Source: a virus. From it: a stretch of 36,859 nt of DNA. Each line of letters opens with the position of its first letter. The stretch's first letter is position 1. Below the pieces are notes generated by a model, which worked only from the letters and a program-made list of their open reading frames with translations, was not told the origin of the DNA and did not search any database. The DNA is taken from positions 1-36,859 of IMG/VR virus record IMGVR_UViG_3300049927_000144. One strand, given 5' to 3'. The position numbers and the translations under genes were made by a program. Positions 26,464 through 29,533 of this stretch are shown here, piece after piece.

Positions 26464-26817
26464 TTAAATTTCTTCCAGTCTTCTTCTTCCTGATCGCTGA
26501 GCTCTCATTGTGCGCGTTATCCTGGTTCTTCTCATCTCGAGGTCATCACCATTGACCTGCATCCATGCAAATGCAATCGCAAAGAAAATACACGTGAGTC
26601 TGCGGTTCGCTTCCACCAAGCCTTCCTTAATTCTGAACTCCTGTATACGCTGGACCAGGCGCTGGATGTTCTTCTCCAGGAGAGTTGCATACTCATCTTG
26701 CTTGATCAGTTTCTGCTCCTTGAGCCTGCGCAAGCCTTCATGCGTAGTGTGTAAGCCATCGATGATGTGATCGTGCAGCATGCTATTGCTCTGACTGCTG
26801 TACATTTTCGGCTTCAT
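26464..26817 (-). CDS. Small basic helical protein downstream of the reverse transcriptase
   Basis: The 117-residue protein consists of several predicted helices and ends in an Arg-rich stretch (EMRRTRITRTMRAQRSGRRRL). It belongs to the same tightly overlapping run as the reverse transcriptase (one gene between, 4-nt overlap). Size, helical content and positive charge are those of Avd-type accessory proteins of diversity-generating retroelements, but I see no Avd sequence signature and its position (second gene after the RT) is not the usual one. Treat as hypothetical. Confidence 0.45.
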   Translation of the reverse strand: MKPKMYSSQSNSMLHDHIIDGLHTTHEGLRRLKEQKLIKQDEYATLLEKNIQRLVQRIQEFRIKEGLVEANRRLTCIFFAIAFAWMQVNGDDLEMRRTRITRTMRAQRSGRRRLEEI

Positions 26818-27110
26818 GTGAATTCGTAATAATCGTTATCGCCCTTGATGGTAGTTATGAATGGGAACTTGTCTACAGTTACACGTTTGATTTGACTAAT
26901 CAGAATAGTCGATCCGGTAAACACAACGCGCTTCTCTTCTCCCTTTTCAATTTGCAGGTAAAGGCATTCTGTTCCTTCTTTAATCTTTGATGGCTCAATT
27001 TTGAAATCAAGCACCTTGATCTGAATGTTAATAATCTTCTTCACCGGTATTTTATCGCCGATGAATGTCTTTGCTTCTGGCTTAATGTCGAAGTCGCTAA
27101 AATTATGCAT
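26814..27110 (-). CDS. Small beta-rich protein overlapping the reverse transcriptase gene
   Basis: The 98-residue protein appears to form a small beta-barrel-like domain: alternating strands KIINIQIKVLDFKIE, CLYLQIEKGEEKRVVFTGS, then FPFITTIKGDNDYYEFT. Its ATG lies 8 nt inside the end of the RT gene, implying translational coupling. A nucleic-acid-binding OB-like fold would fit. I know no named family. Confidence 0.5.
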   Translation of the reverse strand: MHNFSDFDIKPEAKTFIGDKIPVKKIINIQIKVLDFKIEPSKIKEGTECLYLQIEKGEEKRVVFTGSTILISQIKRVTVDKFPFITTIKGDNDYYEFT

Positions 27111-28053
27111 GGAGTAGTTTTTTGGTTAAGTGTTTTGCGTTGCAATGGCCGAGCCAACCGCGATACGAAGCTTTGGAAGGATGAGCAGGGTTACGGCTGA
27201 GCTTACGCGCGAAGCTTTGCTTTATTGATTTGCGTATCCTGATGTGTGAATGCCTGAAGACATAGCCAACAAAATCTATCCCTCTGGAATCCACAGGGAA
27301 TACCTGGTGATTATCTTTAACTTCCAGCTTCAGTTCTTCCAGATAGATTTTGATGTCAGCCAGTAGCTCGTGAAGCTTGCCCTTGTCTGAATGCAGAATA
27401 ACGATGTCATCTGCATAGCGATAGTAGTATTTTTCCATCTTCTCTTCCTTGATCCAGTGATCAAAATAAGTGAGATAGAAATTAGCCAGGTATTGGCTCA
27501 GGTAATTGCCGATAGGTAACCCGGGTGCACTGTCGATGATTTCATCAAGCAACCAAAGCAAATCATTGTCTTTGAATTTTCTGCGAAGTAATCCCTTGAG
27601 CATATTATGATCTATGCTCGGGTAAAATTTCTTTATATCCAGCTTCAGGCAATATTGCGTGCCGTGAATGTCATTTAATTCATGTTTGAGATTTTGAAGC
27701 AGGCTGTGAATGCCGCGCTTCTTAATGCAGCTGTAAGTGTCTGCTGTGAATGATTTCACAAAAATAGGTTCGAGCACATTCATGATCGCGTGATGCGCAA
27801 TGCGATCTGGAAAATAAGGAAGCCTGTAAACAATGCGTTCTTTCGGTTCGCGAATGGTGAAAATGTCGTAGGTAGATGTTCTATATGTTTTGCTCATTAG
27901 CATATCCTGGAGCACAAGCAAATTGCTTTCTTTATTGCGGTTGTGAAGCATCACACCGTATTGATTTGCTTTTCCCTTCTGCCCTTTCACATCGGCATCC
28001 TGAAGGTTTTTTAAGCTTGTAATTTTATCGTAGATGTTAGTTATTCTTTTCAT
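27103..28053 (-). CDS. Diversity-generating retroelement reverse transcriptase
   Basis: The 316-residue protein is a compact reverse transcriptase that copies the template-repeat RNA into cDNA with errors at adenines. The catalytic aspartates are in LKLDIKKFYPSI (Asp139) and YADD (213-216). The motif LPIGNYLSQ at 179-187 has the IGxxxSQ form diagnostic for DGR enzymes, where group II intron RTs have QGxxxSP. There is no maturase or endonuclease domain and the length is normal for DGR RTs. The template repeat lies 114 bp upstream and three target genes precede that. TR/VR adenine-only mismatches confirm past activity. Confidence 0.95.
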   Translation of the reverse strand: MKRITNIYDKITSLKNLQDADVKGQKGKANQYGVMLHNRNKESNLLVLQDMLMSKTYRTSTYDIFTIREPKERIVYRLPYFPDRIAHHAIMNVLEPIFVKSFTADTYSCIKKRGIHSLLQNLKHELNDIHGTQYCLKLDIKKFYPSIDHNMLKGLLRRKFKDNDLLWLLDEIIDSAPGLPIGNYLSQYLANFYLTYFDHWIKEEKMEKYYYRYADDIVILHSDKGKLHELLADIKIYLEELKLEVKDNHQVFPVDSRGIDFVGYVFRHSHIRIRKSIKQSFARKLSRNPAHPSKASYRGWLGHCNAKHLTKKLLHA

Positions 28054-28080
28054 AGCCTTTGCTTTTCATAAGTCGCCTTC

Positions 28081-28098
28081 TCCCGATAGCTATCGGGA
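28081..28098. promoter_or_regulatory. 18-bp perfect palindrome between TR and RT
   Basis: TCCCGATAGCTATCGGGA is perfectly self-complementary and lies between the template repeat and the RT start, inside the predicted TR-RT transcript. It could form a hairpin or cruciform, act as an operator, or mark a processing point. No T run follows on the minus strand, so it is not a standard terminator. Confidence 0.5.
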
Positions 28099-28166
28099 TA
28101 CCAACGCCTTAAGGTTTAATCCGTTATTTTTTGCCAAGAGGCATGGTCTGCGATAGTGTTTCTTTA

Positions 28167-28241
28167 GCATAGGTGAGAGCTGACATTCGAATTCGAGTTC
28201 CAGTTATCGTAGTCGTTATACCGAAAGCCGTGAGAACCGCC
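28167..28241 (-). repeat. DGR template repeat (TR)
   Basis: The 75-nt TR, read on the minus strand, carries the AAC/AAT codon run typical of DGRs: in the frame of the targets it would read GGSHGFRYNDYDNWNSNSNV, then SSHLC and a stop codon. It has 18 sense-strand adenines; 17 of them differ in at least one of the three VRs, and none of the 57 other positions does. Homology ends sharply at both sides. Confidence 0.96.
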
Positions 28242-28267
28242 CAACCACCGCACAACCTTTTTTTATT

Positions 28268-28663
28268 TTAAAGCGCGTATTCGTTCCAGAGTTTTACATA
28301 GGTCTTGTTATCGGCTGAGAGCGCCTTCATTACTTCATAACTTATAAAGCAAAGGCGAGAGCCGACAAGCGAAGACGAGCTCCAGCGACCGTAGGCGCGA
28401 TACCGAAAGCCGCGAGAACCGCCATCATAGTACCAACGAGCTTCATACTTTACTTGGTTGCTCTTTTTATGATTGGCTTTCCATGGCTTTCCTCCATTAG
28501 CAATTTGATTTGTGGCTGCCACCATGATGCATATCTTGGTGTGTGCTCGCATTGCCTTGCGATCCTTGGCGGGTAGATGCTCGAAGGATGGAATAACTTT
28601 TTTTGAATCGAGCTTTTTCAATTTGCAAGCAGATTCGAACGTGAGTTTTTTTATCTCTTCCAT
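28268..28663 (-). CDS. DGR target protein 1 (nearest the TR)
   Basis: I start this at ATG 28663 (131 residues, MEEIKKLTFESACKL), 5 bp after the preceding stop; a longer frame to 28729 would overlap the previous gene. Residues about 81-105 are the variable region, reading GGSRGFRYRAYGRWSSSSL then VGSRLC. About 26 residues follow (FISYEVMKALSADNKTYVKLW). Upstream lies a weak version (KPWKANHKKSNQVKY) of the NGDWxPDxxNxxQxK element seen in target 3. There is no signal peptide or membrane helix. It is the most diverged from the TR (15 adenine sites). The target fold is expected to be a small ligand-binding scaffold. Confidence 0.85.
   Translation of the reverse strand: MEEIKKLTFESACKLKKLDSKKVIPSFEHLPAKDRKAMRAHTKICIMVAATNQIANGGKPWKANHKKSNQVKYEARWYYDGGSRGFRYRAYGRWSSSSLVGSRLCFISYEVMKALSADNKTYVKLWNEYAL
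28349..28423 (-). repeat. Variable repeat 1 (VR1)
   Basis: Aligned without gaps to the TR, 15 of 75 positions differ and all are adenines in the sense strand of the TR. Changed codons include AAC to CGC, AAC to AGC and AAT to CTT. Confidence 0.95.
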
Positions 28664-28668
28664 GGGCT

Positions 28669-29073
28669 TTATTTCTTTATGATGAGCATGAAGTTTTTGA
28701 ATACTTGAGGATGTTGATTGGCCAGCCATTCGCCCTGGTCAGAATCAAAAAAGCAAAGGCGAGAGCCGACATCCGAATTCGAGCCCCAGCAAACGTAGTC
28801 GCCATACCGAAAGCCGCGAGAACCGCCCATTTCAAACCAGTTGAAATATTTCCACTGCTTTGGATTGTTCCAATCAGGCTCTCTCTTTTCATTCACAGCG
28901 CGGACAAGAACCACGACCGTCTGATAATTCAAAAGGTGATCTGTGGGATCGTCCAAAATAGTGAGAATTTTTTTGTACCTAATCACCTCATCATCCTGAT
29001 CACCGAGGTAGGCCAGCGCTGATTCAATCGTGCCTGCGCGTCGCATTAGTTTTGTAATTTCTGTCGTTTCCAT
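28669..29073 (-). CDS. DGR target protein 2
   Basis: I start this at ATG 29073 (134 residues, METTEITKLMRRAGTIE), 7 bp after the stop of target 3; the longer frame to 29139 would run back over that gene. A helical N-terminal part leads into EPDWNNPKQWKYFNWFEM, then the variable region GGSRGFRYGDYVCWGSNSD, VGSRLC and 28 C-terminal residues. Outside the VR it has little identity with targets 1 and 3 apart from the DWxN---Q-KY and SRLC elements. No export signal is present. Confidence 0.85.
   Translation of the reverse strand: METTEITKLMRRAGTIESALAYLGDQDDEVIRYKKILTILDDPTDHLLNYQTVVVLVRAVNEKREPDWNNPKQWKYFNWFEMGGSRGFRYGDYVCWGSNSDVGSRLCFFDSDQGEWLANQHPQVFKNFMLIIKK
28753..28827 (-). repeat. Variable repeat 2 (VR2)
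   Basis: Twelve of 75 positions differ from the TR, all at sense-strand adenines. Codons for Asn, Asp and Ser in the TR have become Gly, Val and Cys among others. Confidence 0.95.
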
Positions 29074-29080
29074 GTTTAGA

Positions 29081-29533
29081 TTATTTAATAATTGAAGCTT
29101 TAAACCATTTCGTGAATTTTGTTCCGGCATGAATAGCAAGCCTTTCCTCTTTCAAGCAAAGGCGAGAGCCGACATTCGAATGCGAGTACCAGTCATCGTA
29201 GTCGCTACACCGAAAGCCGCGAGAACCGCCCGTGAACCAGGGCCGCCACTTGGTCTGATTTGCATTGTCAAAATCAGGCACCCAATCTCCATTGAGTGAG
29301 TTGTGCAATAGTTCCAAAAAACGGTCGGCACGTTCATAAACTCTGAGCCCTTCACACCATTTATTGAAGGTGTCTAATGTGTAGCCATTATCGGCAAGCA
29401 CATCATCATCCGTAAGGATGCGCGATAAAACATCTTTTGGCTTTTCCTTCAATAAGGCTTCGCCAGATTTAATGTCGAAGCTTTCAACTTCGAACCCATT
29501 GGGAATTGGGATTTTGATTTTTATAGTTTCCAT
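29081..29533 (-). CDS. DGR target protein 3
   Basis: The 150-residue protein (METIKIKIPIPNGFEVESFD) has the fullest version of a layout I recall from many small uncharacterised Bacteroidota phage proteins: a beta-rich start, a helical middle, NGDWVPDFDNANQTKW, an aromatic strand, then SRLCLKEERLAIHAGTKF and a helix to the end. Here the variable region GGSRGFRCSDYDDWYSHSN lies between the aromatic strand and VGSRLC. Its ATG touches the stop of the upstream gene (TAAATG). It is closest to the TR (9 adenine differences). Function unknown; binding to a variable partner is inferred. Confidence 0.85.
   Translation of the reverse strand: METIKIKIPIPNGFEVESFDIKSGEALLKEKPKDVLSRILTDDDVLADNGYTLDTFNKWCEGLRVYERADRFLELLHNSLNGDWVPDFDNANQTKWRPWFTGGSRGFRCSDYDDWYSHSNVGSRLCLKEERLAIHAGTKFTKWFKASIIK
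29156..29230 (-). repeat. Variable repeat 3 (VR3)
   Basis: Nine of 75 positions differ from the TR, all at sense-strand adenines. It has the fewest changes of the three VRs, which fits the most recent transfer or the weakest selection for change. Confidence 0.95.

Follow-up and report, generated by a model that had tools for sequence, protein, structure and literature searches.

The virus record IMGVR_UViG_3300049927_000144, analysed here over its entire length of 36,859 bases (the window), carries a diversity-generating retroelement (DGR) belonging to a group in which template (TR) adenines that precede a guanine are, judging from the sequences compared, apparently read as guanine almost deterministically by the reverse transcriptase (RT) or an RT-RNA complex. 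Accounts of DGR mutagenesis usually treat the changes at adenines as random. In this RT clade the next base largely sets the outcome, AG giving G and AC almost never giving C. The explanation that we regard as highly probable is that of an active, Avd-less DGR that copies most TR adenines with random errors and AG as GG.

Layout of the element and identity of its RT

The window contains genes for a portal, a head protease, a tape measure and a primase and is therefore that of a tailed phage. A search for terminal repeats of 10-399 bases gave none, so it may be fragmentary. The TR, three variable regions (VRs), their target genes and the RT all lie on the minus strand. The RT gene (27103-28053) encodes 316 aa and was identified from the ORF, phrog_1423, PDB 8ub7 and trees. 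As originally noted, it carries the motifs PIGNYLSQ and YADD. It matches the phrog_1423 reverse transcriptase at 1.8e-116 and its closest solved structure is PDB 8ub7 (8e-42), which from its length and name we take to be the BPP-1 RT (bRT); a group II intron RT matches at 5e-16. In trees it sits among DGR RTs, with group II introns, used as outgroup, far outside, which is the placement that had been anticipated. The group II intron model TIGR04416 gave 116 of 300 bits, below its cut-off, and the motif is IGNYLSQ and not QGxxxSP. Retron RTs were compared through profile and structure matches, and the one retron model family used (NF038233) also remained below cut-off, with 67.6 of 235 bits. Motifs, grouping with DGR RTs and the adenine-only TR-VR mismatches described below together bear out the identification as a phage-borne DGR.

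Relatives of the RT are found in IMG/VR contigs, at no more than 82% identity, and in Bacteroidota genomes including Cyclobacteriaceae, Chitinophagaceae and Flavobacterium. The element is an additional member of the Avd-less, SRLC-type 'lineage 3' DGRs of Bacteroidota phages and prophages, and the SRLC motif occurs at the IMH as VGSRLC in all three targets. None of the ten proteins around the RT matched Avd, and the region 26464-26817 has no similarity to BPP-1 Avd. Two small ORFs follow the RT on the minus strand (26464-27110), of 117 and 98 aa, the latter being phrog_19665; both were rejected as Avd candidates, since neither matches the Avd family.

The spacer between TR and RT contains an RNA (28058-28148) that scores 42.7 bits against the covariance model of Rfam RF03020 (RT-17), above the gathering threshold of 40.4, and is strongly conserved across 90 relatives. 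While RT-17 is given in Rfam only as an RNA, in these DGRs it is located between TR and RT. The loop of the second RT-17 hairpin (28079-28107) holds a palindrome, CCCGATAGCTATCGGG, absent from most relatives. In five relatives (L002, L005, L006, L013 and L048) the gap between TR and RT is about 300-520 bases, against about 100 usually.

Upstream of the TR lie three target genes: the proximal target gene 1 (28268-28663, 131 aa) and target gene 2 (28669-29073, 134 aa), whose starts were refined from alignment with relatives, and the distal target gene 3 (29081-29533, 150 aa), defined by its ORF, by homology to the targets of relatives (57% to that of L013) and by phrog_11581. They contain VR1 (28349-28423), VR2 (28753-28827) and VR3 (29156-29230), respectively. 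In target 3 the VR is internal, with 26 residues beyond its arginine. Targets of the lineage likewise fall in phrog_11581 and are small paralogues, mostly of 120-160 aa, with an internal VR usually followed by 25-29 residues. A Pfam search of 56 target homologues gave no matches, nor did tblastn of target 2 against GenBank phages. An AF2 model of a target, examined for a C-type lectin fold, reached a pLDDT of 85, dropping under 50 within part of the VR, and Foldseek returned for it no match at E < 0.001 and none in the PDB.

Three targets beside one TR had been considered an uncommon arrangement, a view that does not survive comparison with relatives, in which tandem targets are usual. Upstream sequence of more than 2.5 kb was at hand for 86 anchored elements, of which 61 contain two VRs, 11 three (the window counted) and 14 one, and a scan for TR-VR pairs showed that most relatives have VR genes arranged in tandem upstream of a single TR. 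Of 948 DGRs in a published survey, 28.6% had multiple VRs (PMC6642488). Multi-target DGRs of Treponema, Stenotrophomonas and gut phages (PMC10743442, PMC6642488) also have one TR and several VRs, whereas here the targets are small paralogues that follow one another in tandem on the upstream side of the TR. One relative (L099, 450-529) has an extra VR about 3.4 kb upstream of its TR, distant from the tandem pair.

Adenine-restricted transfer and the IMH box

The TR (28167-28241) is conserved in relatives and has 18 adenines, with a single AG site (A60, window 28181). Gap-free comparison on the minus strand of 28241-28167 with 28423-28349, 28827-28753 and 29230-29156 gave 15, 12 and 9 mismatches for VR1, VR2 and VR3, and the original claim that these are confined to adenines holds for all 36, the 57 other positions having none. 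With mismatches placed at random, the chance of this would be 4e-13, 7e-10 and 4e-7, respectively. A search for an additional VR within the window found none. At positions 60, 67 and 71, and also at 10 and 25, all three VRs share the same base; A60 is G in each, while A67 and A71 sit inside the IMH*/IMH box and the change at position 71 (CTA to CTT) is silent. Protein selection as the sole cause of the constant changes at A60, A67 and A71 was rejected for the silent sites. Positions 60, 67 and 71 are lineage-wide constants, and the informative mismatch counts are therefore 12, 9 and 6. The notion that the three VRs record independent rounds of diversification is supported only in part, since three mismatches per VR are constitutive, owing to the context rule at A60 and to the IMH box at A67 and A71.

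The extent of transfer was delineated in 115 elements with 216 TR-VR pairs, taking TR A67 as offset 0. In the non-A columns from about -64 to -2, TR and VRs of the same element agree in about 95-100%. Many of these bases vary from one element to another, which indicates that the VRs receive this tract from the TR. Between offsets 0 and +7 the VR is nearly constant (GCCTTTGC, the IMH in all VRs of the window) and the TR departs from it by one to five bases in 115/115 elements, and by exactly two in 84; in the window the corresponding IMH* box of the TR (28167-28174) reads ACCTATGC. Since the differing base and its place vary among elements, it seems to be the TR/VR difference itself that is kept. 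In BPP-1, mismatches between IMH and IMH* set the direction of transfer (PMC3240598), and by analogy the box from offset 0 to +7, with A67 and A71, fits the BPP-1 IMH and IMH*. A search 3' of the VRs for a hairpin or inverted repeat of the BPP-1 type found none at VR1 or VR2, and at VR3 a single 9-nt pair (29140-29163) that overlaps the VR3 IMH and its 3' flank.

VRs that share an identical TR differ in 735 of 1197 comparisons of adenines outside AG, in 7 of 171 of AG sites and in none of non-A positions; these comparisons reuse some loci and are not independent. Relatives with the same TR thus vary only at TR adenines, the very restriction for which a check in related genomes had been proposed. 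This upholds activity for the lineage; for the element of the window itself, also predicted to have been active, activity is inferred.

The AG rule and its distribution among RTs

Adenines followed by guanine were compared in about 170 relatives, with AG to GG counted in 294 TR-VR pairs. In this RT clade a TR 'AG' corresponds to a VR 'GG' in about 92-96% of cases. By codon position, G was counted in 470/492 (96%) at position 1, 155/161 (96%) at position 3 and 79% at position 2. At the main codon positions, 22-58% of VRs retain an adenine that precedes A, C or T, and the others show varied changes. The same picture emerges by TR cluster: of 74 clusters with AG, 58 are all G and none is under 50%, whereas other adenines average 0.27 G and 0.38 kept. 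At fourfold-silent AG sites G was found in 116/119, with a mean of 0.986 G over 40 TR clusters; the majority of these silent sites are found close to the tract's 5' edge, and in the 26 interior pairs with a mutated adenine further 5', all 26 have G. Exceptions to the rule mostly concern a central CAGAA or GAGAA codon, carrying A or T. A second context effect concerns C: AC becomes C in only 2% in this lineage and, in the TR-VR pairs of L002-L207, C replaces the second A of AAC in 3% of cases and that of AAT in 21% (p 4e-23). Both codons specify Asn, so this bias is not protein selection either.

In the maximum-likelihood tree all clear followers of the rule fall in a single clade (41 rows, support 100/99), which spans Bacteroidota phages and prophages, crAss-like phages, a Psychrobacillus phage and a methanogen virus. 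FastTree, run with the RT of the window included, grouped it with L136 and L002 inside this clade (support 0.989). The rule held over the whole aligned stretch in the crAss-like phages cr55_1 (7/7), cr60_1 (8/8) and cr130_1 (8/8), and also in the methanogen virus vir525 (4/4) and in Perkons (2/3). AG to G was absent from hankyphage-like (0/7), Magia (0/10), SC_8 (0/12) and Closwp03 (0/2) elements, and BPP-1-like VRs at AG are 42% G and 50% kept; of these, the BPP-1-like, Magia and SC_8 elements fall outside the clade. In the Magia and SC_8 elements L315 and L319, AG adenines are mostly unaltered (0/22 to G). A rule common to all DGRs was rejected on the evidence of the BPP-1-like, Magia and SC_8 elements, and RT lineages seem to handle AG in opposite ways. 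Within the follower clade, Closwp03 and long-branched hankyphages are exceptions, both lacking the rule. Followers have the RT motif GNY[LTV]SQ, BPP-1 and Magia G[NS]L[TS]SQ, and hankyphage GLRSSQ; Closwp03 has GNYTSQ and yet lacks the rule. As a correlation on one tree, drawn from sequence data, the AG rule belongs to one RT clade.

Explanations of the rule and comparison with other DGRs

Could AG be fixed merely by purifying selection for Gly or Arg in a lectin-like scaffold, with the RT mutating AG at random? AG sites are mostly AGC or AGT codons that become Gly, and the rule is not followed at the central CAG codon, in which an Arg may do damage. VRs have already passed selection, which reinforces whatever bias exists where the change at AG is not silent (Ser to Gly). 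Selection of this kind would, however, predict random outcomes at silent AG sites, where G was almost invariably seen, in the interior as well. Furthermore, TRs tolerate a silent-site A only if the next base is G (26%, compared with 0-2% for A, C or T), a preference not seen in BPP-1-like TRs. Were nothing but selection at work, G should also be favoured in the TR itself, yet 85% of TRs keep A at offset -7. We consider this explanation very unlikely. That AG sites lie outside the transferred tract, the VRs retaining an ancestral G, would agree with the position of many of them near either TR end and with the 3' box (offset 0 to +7), which truly is outside. Yet the non-A bases flanking AG, which differ between elements, are identical in the TR and VRs of one element in 99-100% (216 pairs), requiring transfer, and interior silent sites with mutated adenines further 5' are G without exception, which makes this possibility extremely remote.

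If a separate enzyme edited A to I at the AG sites of the TR RNA before the RT copied it, the same A-to-G outcome would be expected. However, the rule tracks the RT clade over Bacteroidota, a Psychrobacillus phage and a methanogen virus, and across such distant hosts the RT fits better than a host enzyme, so that editing appears highly improbable. Finally, the anatomy and the adenine-only mismatches are those of known DGRs, and the element might be an ordinary three-target DGR and no more. This we hold to be improbable, since the AG rule and its limitation to a clade are strong and no earlier report of the rule was found in the literature searched.

In the explanation favoured here, that of an Avd-less DGR reading AG as GG, we infer the RT (and not RNA editing) as the cause of the AG outcome, as well as how the genes are transcribed together and what the targets do. 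An operon of target 3, target 2, target 1, TR, RT-17 RNA and RT would be transcribed from the minus strand; the RT would sit on the RT-17 spacer RNA and copy the TR RNA, most adenines with random errors and an adenine before G as G, possibly by putting C opposite A once G has just been copied. The cDNA, in which the IMH* box of the TR would not be copied, would then take the place of the VR, upstream of the IMH box, in any one of the targets. By comparison with the DGRs of other phages, these three may be proteins of surface or receptor-binding type. Copying A before G as G leaves a TR/VR difference at AG sites without added diversity. One doubtful but testable idea is that reading AG as GG is an evolved device, whereby, through AG sites at either end of the TR, cDNA matches the VRs and not the TR and, with the IMH* mismatches, template overwriting is blocked; if this were true, programmed miscoding would distinguish template from target. 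In practical terms, the rule means that scaffold codons can hold adenines without being scrambled, that survey counts of 'diversified' sites are inflated, and that TRs engineered for such RTs could introduce fixed edits alongside random ones. The contrast between GNY[LT]SQ and G[NS]L[TS]SQ RTs could serve to locate the residues that shape the error spectrum.

The element shares with BPP-1 an A-specific transfer from TR to VR, a related RT (8e-42) and a 3' IMH*/IMH difference, direction-setting in BPP-1. BPP-1 differs in having Avd, one target, a VR located at the end of its gene and the motif IGSLTSQ, and probably also in the hairpin that follows its VR. In BPP-1-like VRs AG is not read as GG, a contrast that rests on natural BPP-1-like VRs. 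The strongest context effect reported for BPP-1 in E. coli is AC raising A-to-C (PMC12875486), whereas in the lineage of the window the effect of AC is reversed.

The RT of crAssphage LMMB has been placed in DGR lineage 3 (PMC7290462), and in our tree it belongs to the same RT clade as that of the window. Lineage 3 was associated with CLec3-type VRs by Wu et al. 2018, as cited in PMC7290462. Lineage 3 and LMMB have, like the window, the target-TR-RT order, no avd found, SRLC/A at the IMH and an IGNYLSQ RT. LMMB, however, has one large tail-collar target, where the window has three small tandem targets of 131-150 aa.
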